34,274 bases of DNA from Chitinophaga pinensis (GTDB lineage: Bacteria; Bacteroidota; Bacteroidia; SXHM01): assembly GCA_945861685.1 (NCBI GenBank), contig CAMAVO010000010.1:1-34274 (forward strand), read 5' to 3'. A model generated the notes under the pieces. It saw only the letters and a list, made by a program, of their open reading frames with translations. It was not told where the DNA came from and did no database searches. Positions 17,517 through 25,280 of this stretch are shown one piece after another (the stretch's first letter is position 1; each line of letters opens with the position of its first letter). The position numbers and the translations under genes were made by a program.

Positions 17517-18437
17517 CTACTTCAACTCCACCCCCTCAAAATACTCCCGCTGCTTCTTTGCCTTTTTGGGCATCAGCAGCATAATCAGGTTAGAGAGCGT
17601 GAAGGCAATAGGGGAGAGCACCAGCAAACCAATGGGCAGGTACCACGCAAATATTTTGGTCCGCACTCTTCGTTTAGGGTCGCCCGGGCCGCCTTTGGTA
17701 GAAATAAATTGTGCCCACTTGCGGAAAATAAACTTGGCACGCAGTTCAAGATTTACTAAGGTCTTAACCATCGATACTCCGCCCTGCGCCACTAATTTTT
17801 CTTGTAAACGCTGAAACTCATTTTTGTTCAACGCTTCCAAAATAGTGGTTCCAAAACGCGATGCTTCTGCTATTTCTTTTTCAGAAATACCCGATGGCGG
17901 TAAAATGCCGAAGTAGTTTTCTTTTTTGTTGTAGAACAGCCAGCCGACAATGGTTGCCACACTTACTAAGTTGGGTGCGCGGTCTATCAACGCAATGTTG
18001 CCTGCTAATTTTGCGCCTGCGTTTTTCAACATCAGCTTCACACTTTCCTGTGCGTTGAGCCACATGTTGCGCGATGCGCTTACGGTAATTACATTTTTTC
18101 CGTTCAGCAATTGCGCCCCTTCTTTGCTTTTTAAAAAACCTGTCAGCGGTTGCGAAGGCGAGAGAAACCAAACCTGACAACCCAGAATAATTAAATCAAA
18201 CTGCTCTGAAGGATTTACTTTCAGAGTCTGCATCTCAATCGGCTTTTCTAAAACCGATTCAGGGAAAGCATCAAAAAACTCTTTGCTTGTCCACGGAAAA
18301 GGAAAAGGCTTTGCCGGCTTCAGTTCTTCGTAGGTAATAGAAACCGCGGGGTCGGCTTTCAGCGGAGTAAGTATTGAATCTAAAACCCTTGTCAACTGAC
18401 CGGTTTGCGAATAGTGAAGGACAAGGATTTTTTTCAT
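17517..18437 (-). CDS. darA: DarA-like dialkylresorcinol condensing enzyme
   Basis: 306 residues. The N-terminus KILVLHYSQTGQLTRVLD is the FMN-phosphate loop of a flavodoxin-like fold. KPFPFPWTSKEFFDAFPESVLE (about 44-64) and LGCQVWFLSPSQPLTGFL (85-102) are features I recall from Bacteroidota proteins annotated as dialkylresorcinol condensing enzyme. A hydrophobic C-terminal segment (about 265-290) would anchor it in the membrane. In flexirubin synthesis DarA works with DarB to make the dialkylresorcinol esterified to the aryl polyene; DarB is not in this window. It overlaps the acyltransferase gene by 4 bp (ATGA), so the two are translationally coupled. A generic NAD(P)H-dependent flavin oxidoreductase is the alternative. 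Confidence 0.75.
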   Translation of the reverse strand: MKKILVLHYSQTGQLTRVLDSILTPLKADPAVSITYEELKPAKPFPFPWTSKEFFDAFPESVLEKPIEMQTLKVNPSEQFDLIILGCQVWFLSPSQPLTGFLKSKEGAQLLNGKNVITVSASRNMWLNAQESVKLMLKNAGAKLAGNIALIDRAPNLVSVATIVGWLFYNKKENYFGILPPSGISEKEIAEASRFGTTILEALNKNEFQRLQEKLVAQGGVSMVKTLVNLELRAKFIFRKWAQFISTKGGPGDPKRRVRTKIFAWYLPIGLLVLSPIAFTLSNLIMLLMPKKAKKQREYFEGVELK

Positions 18438-19303
18438 GATGTTTTCTCCCAGAAATCATAATAATTAAACCACTGCAGCGGATATTTCCGCACCAACTTC
18501 TCCATCGAAGATACATATTCTTTCAGTAAATCTTCATAACCATTTTTACACATACTTGGTTTTGTTGCCGATAAAGCATAATGTCTTTTGCTTGCTTTAA
18601 AGGCGTAAACAAAGGAATACGGCACTTTAAAATATGCCGCAAGATGAAAAGGTCCGTAAGGAAACAGCGCATCTTCGCCCAGAAAATTGGCCGAAACAGT
18701 TTTACTACCTTTTACAAAGCGGTCGCCATGCAGGCAAATAAGTTCATTATCGCTCAGGCGCTTTTTGATTTCAAAAATATGGCTCAGGTCGTTGGGCTTT
18801 ATCACAATAATATTTACGCTTCGTTTGCCGGTTACACTTTCCAGTGTCTTTTTTATTTTTTCGTGTTCCTCATCAAACATCACAATATTAATGGGCATGC
18901 TCAGTCGCTTGAAAAGATAACCCGCCACTTCCCAGTTGCCGATATGTGAACTGATAAGAATGCCACCTTTACCGCCTTTGCCTATTTCAACAATGTTTTC
19001 TTCGCCAATAAATTCGTAGGTGAATTTATTGCTGAAACCGGCCATCACACAAACCTTATCAATAATGGTTTGCCCGAAAACGTAATAGTTACGGTAAACA
19101 TTCAATCCTGATTTTACCGGACTATATCCCAGTTTGCGGAAATACTTATAAATATAAGGAGTTGCTTTTGGTGTGAAGAAAACAAAGTAAAGCGCTACAA
19201 AACGTAGCAGCGAATAAGCAGGAGTTACACCAAAATTTTTAAGAAGAAAAATAAAAATGCTGTAGCCGAGAACGTTGCCGCGGGTTTTTCCGTCCCAAGC
19301 CAT
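18434..19303 (-). CDS. LpxL/HtrB-like lysophospholipid acyltransferase family protein
   Basis: 289 residues of the lipid A acyltransferase family. The catalytic HX4(D/E) motif is HIGNWE (His120, Glu125) in ILISSHIGNWEVAG, followed by LICLHGDRFVKGS and the acceptor-side PYGPFHLA. An N-terminal hydrophobic segment (about 12-45) ties it to the inner membrane. Homologues occur in aryl polyene and flexirubin clusters, where they are thought to join the ACP-bound polyene to its lipid or resorcinol partner. Here it lies between the ACP (5 bp upstream) and darA (4 bp overlap), so that role is more likely than lipid A acylation. Confidence 0.8.
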   Translation of the reverse strand: MAWDGKTRGNVLGYSIFIFLLKNFGVTPAYSLLRFVALYFVFFTPKATPYIYKYFRKLGYSPVKSGLNVYRNYYVFGQTIIDKVCVMAGFSNKFTYEFIGEENIVEIGKGGKGGILISSHIGNWEVAGYLFKRLSMPINIVMFDEEHEKIKKTLESVTGKRSVNIIVIKPNDLSHIFEIKKRLSDNELICLHGDRFVKGSKTVSANFLGEDALFPYGPFHLAAYFKVPYSFVYAFKASKRHYALSATKPSMCKNGYEDLLKEYVSSMEKLVRKYPLQWFNYYDFWEKTS

Positions 19304-19308
19304 TTTAC

Positions 19309-19560
19309 TTAAGCAGGCTGGTTTACCTTTTGAATAATGTAATCGTAAAAATCCTGAAAGGTTTTGATGTTTACAAAATCCTCGCCTTTTGCTTTAAAGC
19401 CGAAATTATTTTCAATCACCACCACTAAGTCAACAAAATCCAAACTATCTAAGTCTAATGTTTCTTTCAGGCTGGCTTCCGGTGTTATTAAATTAATGTC
19501 TGCTTCAAATTCATCTACTAAAAAACCGTTTATTTTTTCAATGATTTCCTCGTTGCTCAT
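19309..19560 (-). CDS. Acyl carrier protein of the polyene pathway
   Basis: 83 residues, acidic, with the phosphopantetheine site LDLDSLDFVDLVV (Ser39). It carries the growing polyketide/fatty chain as a thioester. It is distinct in sequence from housekeeping AcpP (DFVDLVVVIEN rather than DTVELVMALEE) and sits between the ketosynthase and acyltransferase genes, so it is likely dedicated to this cluster. 9 bp separate it from the ketosynthase gene. Confidence 0.9.
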   Translation of the reverse strand: MSNEEIIEKINGFLVDEFEADINLITPEASLKETLDLDSLDFVDLVVVIENNFGFKAKGEDFVNIKTFQDFYDYIIQKVNQPA

Positions 19561-19569
19561 ATCTTCTTT

Positions 19570-20790
19570 TTACTTTACTTTCTTAACTATCAGTGATGAG
19601 TTTGTTCCGCCAAACCCAAAAGAGTTCGACAAAAATACATCAATATTCTTTTCAATTGTTTTAGAAACAATATTCAGTTTTGCTGAATCTTCATCAGGTG
19701 TTTCAAAATTGATGTTGGGTGCTACAAATGAATTTTGCATCATCAGCAATGAATACACAATTTCACTTGCTCCTGCCATCCAGCACTCATGCCCTGTCAT
19801 TGATTTTGTTGATGTAACAGGACATTTTGCATCACCAAAAACTTCGTGAATGGCGCGTGCTTCAAACATATCACCGATAGGAGTGGAGGTAGCATGTGCA
19901 TTAATGTAATCCACATCTTTCACGGAAATGCCTGCATCTTTCAGCGACATCTTCAGTGAGCGTGCAGAACCTTCAACACTGGGTTGTGAAATATGTCCGC
20001 CATTGCTGGAGAATCCATAGCCTATAACTTCACCCAGAATAGTTGCACCACGTTTTACAGCATTCTCATAACTTTCTAAAATCACCGTTGCAGCACCTCC
20101 GCTTGGAACCAGTCCGTCACGGTTTTTATCAAATGGGCGTGAAGCTTTTGTCGGCTGATTTTCACGAACAGAAAATGCACTGATACCATCAAACGCTCCC
20201 ATGCTGTAGGGGTTTACTTCCTGACCGCCTCCGCAGATAACAGTTTCCTGCATTCCGTGTTTGATTAAAAAATAACCCATGCCAATAGAGTGCGAGCCGC
20301 TTGCACAAGCACCACTCACCGTAAAGTTGATTCCTTTCAGCCTGAAAATGGTGGAAAGGTTCATGGTTATTGTTGAATTCATGCTCTGAAAAATAGAGCC
20401 TGAGCCCATCAATGTTGTATCTTTTTTCTGGCGCATCACATCAACGCCTTCTATTACTGCTCTTGCTGTACTGTCGTTTCCGTAAAGAATACCTACAATG
20501 TTATTGTCCAGAAATGCATCGTCAATCTTTGCCATTTTCAGCGCTTCATCCGTTGCGAGAAAAGCATACTCTGCTTCTTCGGGCATGGAGTTGCGGAAGC
20601 GTCTGTGCAGTTTGTCTTTCAGATTTGGAACAGGCAGAATTCCGGTCAACGCTGAACGGAATCCCATTTCTTTACGAATGGCATCAAACCCAATTCCTGA
20701 TTTGCCTTTGAAAAGCGAATCGCGCACCTCGTCCACATTCTGCCCGATGCAGGAATAAACGCCAATGCCTGTAATTACTACTCTGTTCAT
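19570..20790 (-). CDS. Beta-ketoacyl-ACP synthase (FabF-like) of the polyene cluster
   Basis: 406 residues, full-length KAS I/II fold. The catalytic triad is Cys162 (SGACASGSH), His299 (NAHATSTPIGD) and His334 (KSMTGHECWMAG), with the conserved Lys329. The FGFGGTNSSL loop is at the C-terminus. It extends the ACP-bound chain by two carbons from malonyl-ACP. Flexirubin and aryl polyene clusters usually carry two or more ketosynthases; only this one is in view. Its ATG directly follows the TAG of the ketoreductase with no bases between. Confidence 0.9.
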   Translation of the reverse strand: MNRVVITGIGVYSCIGQNVDEVRDSLFKGKSGIGFDAIRKEMGFRSALTGILPVPNLKDKLHRRFRNSMPEEAEYAFLATDEALKMAKIDDAFLDNNIVGILYGNDSTARAVIEGVDVMRQKKDTTLMGSGSIFQSMNSTITMNLSTIFRLKGINFTVSGACASGSHSIGMGYFLIKHGMQETVICGGGQEVNPYSMGAFDGISAFSVRENQPTKASRPFDKNRDGLVPSGGAATVILESYENAVKRGATILGEVIGYGFSSNGGHISQPSVEGSARSLKMSLKDAGISVKDVDYINAHATSTPIGDMFEARAIHEVFGDAKCPVTSTKSMTGHECWMAGASEIVYSLLMMQNSFVAPNINFETPDEDSAKLNIVSKTIEKNIDVFLSNSFGFGGTNSSLIVKKVK

Positions 20791-21519
20791 CTAGGTATAA
20801 AGTCCTCCGTTCACATGCAACACTTCTCCTGTAATGTATGATGCTTTTGGTGAAGCCAGGAAAGCCACTGCTTCTGCCACTTCTTCCGGTGTTCCGAAGC
20901 GTTGAGCAGGAATAATTTGTTTGTAATCTTTTTCATCAAACCCTTCTGTCATGTCGGTTTTAATAAAGCCGGGAGCAACTGCGTTTACAGTGATGTTTCT
21001 TCTTCCCAGTTCTTGTGCCAGCGCTTTGGTAGCACCAATAACACCTGCTTTTGCAGCAGAGTAATTTGTTTGTCCGGGCAAACCTTTTACACCTGAAAGT
21101 GAAACCACATTTACAATGCGTCCATAGCGTTTTGCTACCATGCCTTTAATAACGGTTCTGGTTACAAAGAAGAAACTGTCGAGGTTGGTTTTTATAACGC
21201 TGTCCCATTCTTCATCTTTCATAAAAGGAAGCAGTTGGTCTTTGCGGATGCCGGCATTGTTAATCAGAACTTCAACAACTTTGTCTTTGTTCTCGTCCAC
21301 CCATTTACCAAGAACAGCTTCAATTTCTTCTCGTTTTGAAACATCAAATTTCAGCAGTTCACCTGTTGTTCCTTTTTCAATAACACTTTGTAAAGTCTCG
21401 TTGGCAGCGGTTTCGTTGCTTTGAAAATTGATAATGATGTGATAACCCTGTTCAGCAAGTTTCAGGCAAATGGCTTTGCCAATACCACGCGAACCACCTG
21501 TTACCAATGCACATTTCAT
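20791..21519 (-). CDS. 3-oxoacyl-ACP reductase (FabG-like) of the polyene cluster
   Basis: 242 residues, a classical short-chain dehydrogenase. Cofactor loop GGSRGIG (8-14), NNAG (87-90), catalytic Ser140, Tyr153 and Lys157 (YSAAK), and the NAVAPGFIKTDMT segment. The arginine in the first loop points to NADPH. It reduces 3-oxoacyl-ACP after each ketosynthase step. It sits directly before the ketosynthase gene, so it serves the same pathway. A dehydratase, needed next to make double bonds, is not in the window. Confidence 0.9.
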   Translation of the reverse strand: MKCALVTGGSRGIGKAICLKLAEQGYHIIINFQSNETAANETLQSVIEKGTTGELLKFDVSKREEIEAVLGKWVDENKDKVVEVLINNAGIRKDQLLPFMKDEEWDSVIKTNLDSFFFVTRTVIKGMVAKRYGRIVNVVSLSGVKGLPGQTNYSAAKAGVIGATKALAQELGRRNITVNAVAPGFIKTDMTEGFDEKDYKQIIPAQRFGTPEEVAEAVAFLASPKASYITGEVLHVNGGLYT

Positions 21520-21522
21520 AAT

Positions 21523-22383
21523 TTAGAACTTATAAAAAACGCCTGCATCAATTGCAGGGTAGGTATTGGTTTTAGGACTTGGAGGTCCGCTACCTCCATT
21601 ACCCTCAACACCTGTAAATGGAAAGGATACTCCGCCTGCAATATTTAAACCTATGTGTTTTCCGAAAATATAATCGCAGCCTGTAAGTAAGGCCGGACCG
21701 AAGAGCACATCGCTGAAATCACTTCTGTCGCCTGTATTATATAAGTAATATTCTTGATCTCGGCCCACCATGCCCAATTGAAAATCAACATACACCCATT
21801 TGTAAACAAATAATTTTACTCCGAAATCAAATTGTATTCTTTTTGCAAACGAGCCTGTGCTAACATAATAAAACGGATTTGGATAAACACCCAGCCCCAC
21901 ATGCAAACCAAAACCAACAACTCCACCTGTTCTAAATTGAAAACGTGTTCCCGCGCCACCGTAGCTGTTTCCGTAACCAGCGCCAAGTGAAACATATTTA
22001 TCGTGCCCGTTCAGTTGAAATTTTGATTTGGGCTTTTCGGGTTGTTCTTTCTCTTTTTTATCTCCCTCAAATGAATAAACGTATTGATCTTCTTCCGTTG
22101 TTTTTTCCGGTGTTTGCTCCTGAACTTTGGTAAAGGCTTCTTCTGTTCCGTCCTGGTATCTTATGGAAATAACATCCTCAACTTTTACTGTGCGCACAGG
22201 TCCTTCCGGCTGGTCAAACTTCTTAAATTTGATAATTTCCGGAGTGATTTCTTCAACCTTGGCGCGATACTCTGAACCATCTTTCATATAGATGTAATCC
22301 TGTGCCTGCGCAGCAATTGTAATGAAAAAGAAAAGCACAACAGCACTTAGCTTACGAGAAAACATTTTTGAGTGGGTTTTCAT
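21523..22383 (-). CDS. Secreted outer-membrane-barrel-like protein of unknown function
   Basis: 286 residues from the first ATG; a second ATG (22365) gives 280. A signal peptide (hydrophobic to AAQAQD, about residue 29) is followed by a small beta domain (about 30-85; YIYMKDGSEYRAKVEEITPE, VEDVISIRYQDGT) that I recall in many secreted Bacteroidota proteins. A charged Lys/Glu/Pro linker (about 88-122) follows. The C-terminal half is rich in glycine and aromatics with alternating strands, and ends in YKF, so a small outer-membrane barrel is likely. It overlaps the tyrosine ammonia lyase gene by 14-32 bp and is 3 bp before the ketoreductase, so it is part of the pigment operon. A role in placing or exporting the pigment at the outer membrane is my inference. 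Confidence 0.7.
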   Translation of the reverse strand: MKTHSKMFSRKLSAVVLFFFITIAAQAQDYIYMKDGSEYRAKVEEITPEIIKFKKFDQPEGPVRTVKVEDVISIRYQDGTEEAFTKVQEQTPEKTTEEDQYVYSFEGDKKEKEQPEKPKSKFQLNGHDKYVSLGAGYGNSYGGAGTRFQFRTGGVVGFGLHVGLGVYPNPFYYVSTGSFAKRIQFDFGVKLFVYKWVYVDFQLGMVGRDQEYYLYNTGDRSDFSDVLFGPALLTGCDYIFGKHIGLNIAGGVSFPFTGVEGNGGSGPPSPKTNTYPAIDAGVFYKF

Positions 22384-23899
22384 TAAGAATTAGGTTTTTT
22401 AATTTGGTTAATTCTTCGTTGCGGGGCTTATCGTCTGTAAACTTAGGCGCAATTTTTCTCAGGTTTTTGAAAATCTTTTGTGTTGCAGGCGAAAGATTGG
22501 TTTCAAAACCAAGATAATCCACTGCCTGCAAGATGGTCATGAATTCAATTGCCAGAATTTCTGCCGTATTATCCACCACTTTTTTTGTAATCAGTGCAGC
22601 GTTTGTTCCCATGCTTACAATATCCTGATTGTCGTTATTATTAGGGATACTATGCAAATACATTGGATAAGCAAGCGTTTGATTTTCTGCAGTGGTTGAA
22701 GTTGCCGTAAACTGAATTCCCTGCATTCCGAAGTTCAGACCGAGTTTGCCAAGGTTTACAAAAGGAGGAAGTTTTCCGTTCAGCTTGTCATTGAGCAGAT
22801 AATTCAGCTGACGTTCGCACATCATACTCATTTTAGCAACGGCAATTTTCAGCTTATCCATTTCAAACGAAACATAATCACCATGGAAGTTACCGCCATG
22901 ATAAACGTTTTCGTTTTTGTGGTCAATGATCGGGTTGTCGTTGGCTGAGTTTACTTCATTCAGCAATACGTTTTCTGCATTTAAAATTGTGTCGTAAACA
23001 GGGCCAAGTATTTGCGGAACGCAGCGCAGCGAGTAATATTCCTGAACTTTATCTTTCAATACTTCAACTTCCACCTTTTTGCTGTACAGGTGATCTGGAC
23101 GGTGACGAATGAGTTTGCTTCCCTTTAAAGCATGGCGCATGGTTTCAGCTATTTTCTTCTGTCCGCTATGGATTTTAGCATTGTTCAGTCCTTCCGAAAA
23201 ATGGTCGTCAAAGGCTTCAACAATCTCGTTAATCATGGAAGAGGCAATAATGCTCCACGACAACAGGTTTTGTGATTTCAGAATGTTGATTAATCCAATT
23301 CCGGTCATTGCTGCTGTTCCGTTCATCAGCGCAATTCCTTCGCGGATATGGATTTGCAGTGGTTTAATTTTCGCTGCTTTCAACGCAACAGATGCTTTTA
23401 CTTTTTTACCTTTGTAAAACACATCACCTTCACCAATCAGGTTAAGCGCAAACTGAGCAAGCTGCACCAAATCACCACTGGCTCCCACGCTTCCGTGTTC
23501 AGGTATGTAAGGGTAAATATCGTTATTGATAAAAGCTACAATGGTTTCAGCAAGGCTTTTGTGAATGCCGGAAAGCCCAAGCATCAAGGTATTTAAACGC
23601 GCCAGCATTACTGCCTTTGCATATTCTTCAGGCAATGGGTTTCCAAGTCCTGAGCAATGGCTGCGGATTAAATTGTATTGCAATGCCAGTTTATCCTTCT
23701 CACTGATGCGGTATTGCGCCATCGGTCCGAAGCTGGTGTTGATTCCGTAAATCAATTTATTATGTGAAAAATCATCAAGGAACTTGTGGTTTTCTTCCAC
23801 ATTTTTCAATGCAGACTTATCGAGGGCGATTTTGTCACCATCAAATAAAATCGTTTTAAAGTTTCCGAGATTTAAATACCTGTTACCTATTACTACCAT
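22352..23899 (-). CDS. Tyrosine (aromatic amino acid) ammonia lyase
   Basis: 515 residues of the HAL/PAL/TAL family. The MIO cofactor forms from Ala140-Ser141-Gly142 (SVGASGDLVQLAQ). Tyr51 (YGINTSFGPM) is the catalytic tyrosine, and His81 in LIRSHCSG is at the position that favours tyrosine or histidine over phenylalanine. QFTATSTTAENQ and HSIPNNNDNQDIVSMG complete the site. Along its length it reads very like the flavobacterial TAL used in flexirubin synthesis, which gives 4-coumarate as starter unit. Histidine ammonia lyase is less likely because no hut genes are nearby and pigment genes are. First gene of the seven-gene operon. Confidence 0.85.
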   Translation of the reverse strand: MVVIGNRYLNLGNFKTILFDGDKIALDKSALKNVEENHKFLDDFSHNKLIYGINTSFGPMAQYRISEKDKLALQYNLIRSHCSGLGNPLPEEYAKAVMLARLNTLMLGLSGIHKSLAETIVAFINNDIYPYIPEHGSVGASGDLVQLAQFALNLIGEGDVFYKGKKVKASVALKAAKIKPLQIHIREGIALMNGTAAMTGIGLINILKSQNLLSWSIIASSMINEIVEAFDDHFSEGLNNAKIHSGQKKIAETMRHALKGSKLIRHRPDHLYSKKVEVEVLKDKVQEYYSLRCVPQILGPVYDTILNAENVLLNEVNSANDNPIIDHKNENVYHGGNFHGDYVSFEMDKLKIAVAKMSMMCERQLNYLLNDKLNGKLPPFVNLGKLGLNFGMQGIQFTATSTTAENQTLAYPMYLHSIPNNNDNQDIVSMGTNAALITKKVVDNTAEILAIEFMTILQAVDYLGFETNLSPATQKIFKNLRKIAPKFTDDKPRNEELTKLKNLILNENPLKNVFS

Positions 23900-24041: not shown

Positions 24042-25280
24042 ATGCAAATAGAAAAGACGGATGTTTTGGTGATTGGTGCAGGTCCTTCGGGAACTGTAGC
24101 CGCCTCTTTAGTAAAGAAAAACGGACTGAATGCGATTATAGTTGAGAAACAGAAATTCCCCCGCTTTGTTATAGGTGAAAGTTTACTGCCCCGCTGCATG
24201 GTTCATCTTGAAGATGCGGGTTTGCTGGATGCTGTTAAAGCGCAGGGATTTCAGGAAAAGTTTGGCGCGAAGTTTTTGAAAGGTGATAAAATGTGCGATT
24301 TTAACTTTTCGGAACAGTTTACAGAAGGTTGGAAATGGACCTGGCAGGTGCCGCGTGCTCAGTTTGATAAAGCGCTGGCTGATGAAACAGAGAAAAAAGG
24401 AGTTCCGGTTTATTACGAAACAGGTGTTGTGGATGTGCAGATGAACGGAAGCGAATCGCTTACCACAGTTGAAGATGCTAACGGAAACAAAAGACAGATT
24501 GAAGCAAAATTTATTATTGACTCAAGTGGTTACGGACGCGTGTTGCCTAATCTGTTTGATTTGAATAAGCCATCGAATTTTCCTGCGCGCAAAACATTGT
24601 TTGCGCATGTAAAAGATGTAAGGCGTCCAAATAATATTGACGGAAACCGTATCACCATCATTGCGCATCATACCGATGTTTGGATCTGGGTAATTCCATT
24701 TTCAAACGGAAATACTTCACTGGGTTTTGTTGGCAACAACTGGTATTTTGAAAATTTTTCGGGAAGCCCTGAAAAGCAATTCAGGGAAATGGTGGAAGAA
24801 GTTCCGCATATCAATGAGCGTTTTCGTGATATTGAGTTAGTATTTGAGCCCCGCACCATTGAGGGCTGGAGTATTTCGGTAAAACAGTTTTATGGCGATG
24901 GTTATGCCTTGACCGGAAACAGCAGTGAGTTTCTTGACCCCGTATTTTCATCAGGTGTAACATTTGCTACCGAATCAGGAGCAGTAGCTGCAAAACTTGC
25001 CTGCCGCCAGATTAAAGGAGAAATAGTGGATTGGGAAAAAGACTTTACCCAACACATGAAACAGGGTGTTGATACTTTCCGCTCTTATGTGACGGGCTGG
25101 TATGACGGCACCTTGCAGGATATTTTCTTCTCGCCTAAAGTGGATTTGAATATTAAAAAGCAGATTTGCTCGGTGCTTGCGGGTTATGTGTGGGATCTTG
25201 ATAATCCGTTTGTGAAGAAACACAGCCGCGTTATTGGCAACCTTGCTAATCTGGTTAAGATGGAAGCCGGAGCACTTTAA
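24042..25280 (+). CDS. Flavin-dependent halogenase homologue
   Basis: 412 residues. FAD-binding GAGPSG (12-17) and GESLLP (45-50). Three halogenase signatures are visible: FxxKxGxxF at 70-78 with candidate catalytic Lys73, WxWxIP as WIWVIP (214-219), and FxxPxxSxG as FLDPVFSSG (297-305). This combination separates halogenases from related monooxygenases. It would oxidise chloride to a lysine-bound chloramine and chlorinate an aromatic ring, with reduced FAD supplied in trans. It is divergent from the aryl polyene operon with a 142-bp shared control region; known flexirubins are often chlorinated on the aryl ring, so this is the likely substrate. A flavin monooxygenase or dehydrogenase remains possible until tested. 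Confidence 0.75.
   Translation: MQIEKTDVLVIGAGPSGTVAASLVKKNGLNAIIVEKQKFPRFVIGESLLPRCMVHLEDAGLLDAVKAQGFQEKFGAKFLKGDKMCDFNFSEQFTEGWKWTWQVPRAQFDKALADETEKKGVPVYYETGVVDVQMNGSESLTTVEDANGNKRQIEAKFIIDSSGYGRVLPNLFDLNKPSNFPARKTLFAHVKDVRRPNNIDGNRITIIAHHTDVWIWVIPFSNGNTSLGFVGNNWYFENFSGSPEKQFREMVEEVPHINERFRDIELVFEPRTIEGWSISVKQFYGDGYALTGNSSEFLDPVFSSGVTFATESGAVAAKLACRQIKGEIVDWEKDFTQHMKQGVDTFRSYVTGWYDGTLQDIFFSPKVDLNIKKQICSVLAGYVWDLDNPFVKKHSRVIGNLANLVKMEAGAL

Follow-up and report, generated by a model that had tools for sequence, protein, structure and literature searches.

A probable flexirubin halogenase encoded divergently from flxA in Chitinophaga pinensis

The open reading frame (ORF) at positions 24042 to 25280 of contig CAMAVO010000010.1 (assembly GCA_945861685.1; the window analyzed here is the whole stretch of 34,274 nucleotides) probably encodes the halogenase of flexirubin biosynthesis in Chitinophaga pinensis. 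In every sequence test made, its product comes out as a flavin-dependent halogenase of the non-tryptophan type (variant B). Through its linkage to, and co-occurrence with, FlxA, the gene belongs to the flexirubin cluster.

Flexirubins are yellow-orange membrane pigments of many Bacteroidota, in which an omega-(4-hydroxyphenyl)-polyene acid is esterified to a dialkylresorcinol. Flexibacter elegans makes 5-chloroflexirubin as a minor pigment. Flexirubins bearing chlorine had been described by 1982 (Achenbach et al., cited in PMC3992019). A search of the open-access literature, outside which subscription journals mostly lie, found no paper assigning an enzyme to flexirubin halogenation and none on chlorinated flexirubin by name. 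The role is an expected one, yet apparently no enzyme has been assigned to it before.

The flexirubin gene cluster

The halogenase ORF starts with ATG and is divergent from seven minus-strand ORFs that begin with flxA. The cluster is composed as follows:

24042..25280, plus strand, halogenase ORF, 412 aa
23900..24041, no strand, gap of 142 bp between flxA and the halogenase gene, putative shared promoter region (from ORF coordinates)
22352..23899, minus strand, FlxA, tyrosine ammonia-lyase of flexirubin biosynthesis (NF053541, 827.7 bits, cut-off 700)
21523..22383, minus strand, 286-aa ORF between flxA and flxB, no match in Pfam and NCBIfam scans
20791..21519, minus strand, FlxB, SDR ketoreductase (NF053542, 397.7 bits, cut-off 340)
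19570..20790, minus strand, beta-ketoacyl synthase in the FlxC position (Pfam and NCBIfam scans)
19309..19560, minus strand, acyl carrier protein (ACP), candidate substrate carrier (PF00550; NF003757, 65.4 bits, cut-off 65)
18434..19303, minus strand, lipid A type acyltransferase (PF03279)
17517..18437, minus strand, 306-aa ORF, no match in Pfam and NCBIfam scans

Relatives of the 306-aa ORF adjoin the acyltransferase gene in loci of Flavobacterium, Sphingobacterium, and Aquimarina. Those of the 286-aa ORF are found in the five closest loci only (L004 to L008). A WG-repeat family is present in 14 other loci, two of which (L041 and L066) have it between flxA and flxB.

The flexirubin genes of this genome are scattered. 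Contig C10 carries flxA, flxB, and the ketosynthase, ACP, and acyltransferase genes together with the halogenase gene, FlxJ is present as two fragments, at contig ends on C95 and C80, and C83 and C188 each carry a DarB gene (607.9 and 590.3 bits, cut-off 550). A second flavoprotein is encoded on C188 (L003:3-1634, minus strand, a 548-aa frame) beside the second DarB-type gene (L137). It has the aligned lysine, WLWVIP, and FLDPFYSPG, shares 26% identity with the halogenase family over 400 aa, and finds its best NCBIfam match in the geranylgeranyl reductase (GG-red) model at 58.8 bits. This protein is a candidate for a second halogenase-like enzyme, located in a dialkylresorcinol locus.

Sequence motifs

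The sequence-only reading had named three halogenase motifs in this protein, and a pattern scan finds each of them once in the 412 residues, at exactly the positions claimed. Together with the flavin-binding box, they map as follows:

24075..24092, plus strand, GxGxxG flavin-binding box, GAGPSG, residues 12 to 17 (motif table)
24249..24275, plus strand, FQEKFGAKF, residues 70 to 78, including Lys73 (pattern scan and alignment)
24681..24698, plus strand, WIWVIP, residues 214 to 219, the WxWxIP motif (pattern scan and alignment)
24930..24956, plus strand, FLDPVFSSG, residues 297 to 305, the Fx.Px.Sx.G motif (pattern scan and alignment)

The three patterns never occur together in 200,000 shuffles of the protein, where they appear in 2487 (FxxKxGxxF), 107 (WxWxIP), and 1053 (FxxPxxSxG) shuffles. 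The same positions are conserved among 83 relatives, which come from the 78 counted loci described below and five further ones, with L004 100% identical to the query. Gly12, Gly14, and Gly17 are kept in all 83, as are Lys73, Gly75, Phe78, both Trp residues, Ile218, and Pro219 and, in the last motif, Phe297, Pro300, Ser303, Ser304, and Gly305. Residue 70 is Phe in 79 relatives and Tyr in 4.

The published recognition motifs of halogenases, as given in PMC7336383, are GxGxxG, WxWxIP, and Fx.Px.Sx.G, along with an active-site lysine. All eight aligned PDB halogenases have Lys in the Lys73 column (K74 in RadH) and contain both WxWxIP and FxxPxxSxG; the strict FxxKxGxxF pattern is present in only two of them, CndH and RadH. 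The general marks are the lysine, WxWxIP, and FxxPxxSxG only, and the strict FxxKxGxxF is not general. The lysine and both motifs are combined in none of nine controls, i.e., four geranylgeranyl reductase (GGR)-family proteins, two GoxB-like proteins, PobA, L104, and L132. Neither the lysine nor WxWxIP is diagnostic alone, since the PrnC-like rows L122 and L133 have no Lys aligned at position 73 and L132, a non-halogenase by other marks, also has WxWxIP.

Profile and fold comparisons

Pfam assigns the ORF to Trp_halogenase (1.5e-22). This is a broad label, as the model also gives above-threshold matches in 5 of 14 control genomes, including E. coli, and a GoxB-like maturase that adjoins a LodA/GoxA oxidase (L131) is annotated "tryptophan 7-halogenase"; the halogenase class was therefore tested separately. 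The best NCBIfam match is the CmlS equivalog (NF033113) at 169.5 bits against a cut-off of 900, which makes the protein a relative of CmlS and not CmlS itself.

Among solved structures, the chain most similar in sequence is 3nix (626 bits, full length), followed by thirteen halogenase chains and then by the first non-halogenase, 3oz2. A family profile (A1) built from 30 relatives scores PltA at 202 bits, CmlS and Mpy16 at 199, ChlB4 at 196, CndH at 194, two Bmp2 chains at 192 and 190, FasV at 187, RadH at 136, CtcP at 98, and PltM at 84 to 85; the best non-halogenase, again 3oz2, reaches 71. The variant A tryptophan halogenases were rejected as a class, PrnA and Thal matching in the profile search only over approximately residues 2 to 56, at 31 to 34 bits.

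The AlphaFold2 model of the protein, which is a confident one (mean pLDDT 91.2, pTM 0.91), superimposes on 3nix with a Z score of 61.4 and 1.0 A over 405 residues at 64% identity. Nine halogenase entries come next (Z scores of 45.2 to 36.1), followed by PnpA (35.4), HspB (35.2), and p-hydroxybenzoate hydroxylase (34.8). The ninth halogenase entry, CmlS, is only tied with the monooxygenase PnpA, and the 50 fold matches listed include many monooxygenases and neither PltM nor CtcP. Thus, fold rank alone cannot separate the classes; it supports the halogenase class but is no proof of it. In Foldseek E-value order, PltM and most CtcP chains are ahead of the first hydroxylase. QhpG (7CTQ) is absent among the matches listed in both the profile and the fold comparisons, which is uninformative on its kinship.

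Fold order, profile scores, motifs, and the tree described below all support the halogenase class that the sequence-only reading had claimed. That reading had also named the outcome that would speak against it, clustering with geranylgeranyl reductases or monooxygenases, and such clustering was looked for and not found. The classes of geranylgeranyl reductases, GoxB/LodB/QhpG-type maturases, and PobA-type hydroxylases were rejected on cut-offs, motifs, tree, and fold.

Phylogeny and known relatives

Two trees were built. The first has 34 rows, with long branches for L104, PobA, the PrnC-like L122, L003, and Bmp2. The second, a maximum likelihood tree of 39 rows, drops L104, L122, and L003 and adds the four GGR and two GoxB-like rows, L132, and L133; the motif table keeps all 42 rows, and QhpG (7CTQ) is not a row of the tree. 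In the 39-row tree, the 14 flexirubin-type rows form one clade (100/99), which is joined by four rows from proteobacterial aryl-polyene clusters (100/100). Both groups lie inside a 31-row halogenase branch whose support, 94/97, is just under the tool's star. Set apart are the four GGR-family rows (97/99), the two GoxB-like rows (100/99), L132, and PobA. The 34-row tree agrees on the flexirubin-type and proteobacterial aryl-polyene clades. Support for the sister halogenase of the combined group is only 84/93 in the 39-row tree, and both trees carry long-branch warnings; in the 39-row tree, PobA meets the GoxB-like rows and L132 meets GGR. On these alignments, the protein is placed among the variant B halogenases, apart from GGRs, GoxB-like maturases, and PobA.

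The closest structure, 3nix from Cytophaga hutchinsonii, shares the 64% identity noted above, the lysine, WxWxIP, and FxxPxxSxG with the C. pinensis protein but was deposited by structural genomics (released 2010) only as a "flavoprotein/dehydrogenase," with no function given. A search of the open-access literature for 3NIX returned matches only on materials science. In a 2016 survey (PMC4859513), C. hutchinsonii ChR43 is listed among oxidoreductases that resemble halogenases; ChR43 is presumably 3nix.

The variant B enzymes PltA, Mpy16, ChlB4, and Bmp2 have the lysine and both motifs and match the fold with Z scores of 43.6 to 45.2; their identity in the structural alignment, however, is only 24 to 25%. 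Their substrates are carrier-bound pyrrole and others. CndH and L116, from the C-1027 enediyne locus of Streptomyces globisporus, likewise have the lysine, WxWxIP, and FxxPxxSxG (L116 at 31.6% identity) but form a separate, well-supported clade (100/99) and have a longer C terminus. We take L116 to be SgcC3, an enzyme that adds chlorine to the phenol ring of a tyrosine-derived substrate tethered to a carrier protein.

The proteobacterial genes, which lie among the aryl-polyene genes of Pseudoalteromonas, Cupriavidus, Acinetobacter, and Caballeronia, encode proteins with the motifs and 41 to 46% identity that form the sister clade (100/100). They differ in phylum and in cluster layout, and one of them is annotated "tryptophan 7-halogenase." We found no report of halogenated pigments from these aryl-polyene clusters. 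A parallel, drawn from description and not from a comparison of sequences, is the xanthomonadin system. According to PMC3691225, aryl-polyene clusters of Xanthomonas have a halogenase gene, whereas a Lysobacter cluster lacks one and its pigment is non-brominated.

Two of the loci retrieved deserve separate mention. L131:2908-4005, on a plasmid of Azospirillum ramasamyi, follows a LodA/GoxA oxidase gene, and its best match is GoxB (248.9 bits, cut-off 400). As it is also without the lysine and WxWxIP, its "tryptophan 7-halogenase" name is probably wrong. L117:8930-10138, in Neisseria gonorrhoeae NZ_CP119140.1, is a homologue broken into pieces in different reading frames. When 17 proteins of the Pseudoalteromonas cluster were used as queries against this 19-kb stretch, only this homologue was matched; it looks like a decayed remnant. 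NZ_CP119140.1 itself, listed as a 2.17-Mb plasmid, looks like a chromosome.

Co-occurrence with FlxA

The relatives search yielded 107 relatives, of which 80 loci were kept. FlxA is encoded within the fetched stretch in 67 of these, and three of the other 13 (L024, L025, and L075) hold other flexirubin genes. Adjacency was counted in 78 loci, leaving out L072 and L083, where the ORF picker missed the family gene. The halogenase gene adjoins FlxA in 62 loci, FlxJ in 7, and either of them in 68. Flavobacterium cauense (L057) has it beside flxA, and Niabella pedocola (L025) has it beside flxJ.

Across 296 evenly sampled Bacteroidota genomes, the present one included, FlxA scores over its cut-off in 25, and a halogenase (E <= 1e-80) is found in 23 of these and in none of the other 271. 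The two FlxA-positive exceptions, G099 and G238, have no halogenase even when searched with the family profile at 1e-15. A sample of 147 genomes from one family contains FlxA in 47, the halogenase in 39, and both in 38, i.e., the halogenase in 38 of 47 FlxA genomes versus 1 of 100 others. The sole halogenase genome without FlxA in this sample, G398, is 69% complete, and its halogenase gene sits in a gene cluster that also encodes FlxB, ketosynthases, and ACPs. Fisher values for such tables count related genomes as if they were independent, and we do not read them as probabilities. Within the same family, FlxA and the halogenase gene lie more than 60 kb apart or on separate contigs in 20 of 38 genomes.

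Pairing with the FlxJ methyltransferase

In many clusters, a methyltransferase of the FlxJ family is encoded just upstream of the halogenase (NF053543, 546.8 bits against a cut-off of 560; Methyltransf_2). The FlxJ name is tentative, as the FlxJ cut-off is reached by a single genome among the 296 and by none of the 147. The METHYLTRANSFERASE pairing is close in the one-family sample, with FlxJ in 38 of the 39 halogenase genomes and FlxJ without halogenase in 2 of the 147 genomes. In 35 of 38 genomes, FlxJ precedes the halogenase on the same strand at a distance of 15 to 551 bp, and FlxJ still adjoins the halogenase gene in 18 of the 20 genomes where the latter is not near FlxA. Among the 47 FlxA genomes of the family, 38 have both genes, none the halogenase only, 1 FlxJ only, and 8 neither. 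Phylum-wide, the 25 FlxA genomes comprise 7 with both, 16 with the halogenase only, 1 (G238) with FlxJ only, and 1 (G099) with neither. Thus, the pairing does not hold across the phylum, where 16 of the 23 halogenase genomes have no FlxJ match.

Several Chitinophagaceae-type clusters encode, after the halogenase, a conserved protein of approximately 208 aa with no Pfam or NCBIfam match (family F28; e.g., L025:11281-11904, plus strand). By gene order, this protein might be FlxL. If the gene letters follow the order in L096 and L025, the halogenase would be the flxK of C. pinensis; this match of letters is weak, as it would make F28, which is unmatched in Pfam, the ketosynthase that bears the name FlxL.

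Proposed function and alternative explanations

Electrophilic halogenation of phenols favors the position ortho to the hydroxyl group. In the proposed mechanism, reduced FAD in the Rossmann domain would react with O2 and halide to give HOX, which would travel through a tunnel, bordered by the WxWxIP strand, as far as Lys73. Lys73 would then direct an electrophilic substitution ortho to the OH on the phenol ring that derives from tyrosine. As substrate, an intermediate held as a thioester on a cluster ACP, either 4-hydroxycinnamoyl or aryl-polyenyl, is most likely. Variant B halogenases use thioester-bound substrates (PMC4859513), and the ACP in the window and the AMP-binding ligase of related clusters such as L026 make it likely that the 4-hydroxycinnamoyl or polyenyl substrate is bound to a carrier or to CoA. 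Since the halogenase often travels with the methyltransferase in flexirubin clusters, it most likely acts on the ring, ortho to OH. PMC3992019 places both the published variation in chlorination and the methionine-derived methyl of flexirubin on the polyene ring. From these comparisons we infer the halogenation itself, the halide (chloride or bromide), the position, timing, and carrier, and the location of Lys73.

The sequence-only reading had proposed that the protein chlorinates the aryl head group or a carrier-bound intermediate, arguing from the divergent orientation of its gene. The enzyme class it relied on is well supported; divergence alone would not establish the target, and many genomes have the gene away from flxA. 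Action on the aryl head group, as presumed here, fits the near-exclusive occurrence in flexirubin genomes, the pairing with FlxJ in one family, and the published polyene-ring chlorination. The purified C. pinensis pigment is C43H54O4, with no chlorine (PMC3992019), so that, if the type-strain cluster has the gene, as only the gene letters suggest, chlorination there would be absent, partial, or conditional. The main text of that paper contains no word beginning with "halogen."

A flavin monooxygenase built on the halogenase fold, similar to QhpG or GoxB/LodB and hydroxylating the ring or the polyene, is a rather unlikely alternative. The nearest structure of QhpG is CmlS (PMC7876137), PnpA and p-hydroxybenzoate hydroxylase share the fold with Z scores of about 35, and the NCBIfam models of QhpG, LodB, and GoxB do match the protein, at 86.6, 78.8, and 64.5 bits; these scores, however, are far under the cut-offs of 240, 400, and 400. 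Neither Lys73 nor WxWxIP is present in the two GoxB-like proteins whose genes adjoin those of LodA/GoxA oxidases, and these proteins stand apart in the tree. A hydroxylation step does not appear to be called for, since the ring OH is already tyrosine-derived (our reading of PMC3992019). Reduction of a polyene double bond by a geranylgeranyl-reductase-like enzyme is extremely improbable. The protein matches the NCBIfam GG-red superfamily at 98.8 bits, and the 2016 survey groups ChR43 with halogenase-resembling oxidoreductases that include GGRs (PMC4859513), but the match is under the family cut-off of 158.8 (TIGR02032), and 3oz2 scores 71 in the family profile versus 187 to 202 for the eight best halogenase chains. 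Moreover, the four GGR-family proteins that exceed the cut-off have no lysine, replace WxWxIP with GYGWIFP, and form their own clade (97/99).

With a halogenase thus favored, its substrate might still be the dialkylresorcinol half or the finished ester rather than the aryl ring, which we consider quite improbable. The separation of the halogenase gene from flxA in many genomes and the second halogenase-like flavoprotein beside a DarB gene in this genome would suit such a target. However, the published variation in chlorination and the methyl whose transferase family pairs with the halogenase are both on the ring (PMC3992019), and the proteobacterial relatives lie among the polyene genes of aryl-polyene clusters.

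Implications

Halogenation of the aryl head group by this enzyme would give a function to the orphan crystal structure 3nix, make pigment head groups predictable from genomes across Bacteroidota, and predict unreported halogenated aryl polyenes in some Proteobacteria. A wider reading combines a dedicated aryl-polyene halogenase clade, a FlxJ/halogenase cassette, a head-group code, halogenation as the rule, and 3nix as the structure of this enzyme; taken jointly, we see these as about evenly poised between right and wrong. If they are right, the clade would span the flexirubin clusters of Bacteroidota and the aryl-polyene clusters of Proteobacteria, and FlxJ plus halogenase would be a ring-tailoring cassette of many Bacteroidota, mobile independently of the polyene operon. 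The presence or absence of these two genes would then tell whether the head group bears a halogen alone, a methyl alone, both, or neither, halogenation would be the rule in a very common pigment class, and 3nix would be its unrecognized structure.
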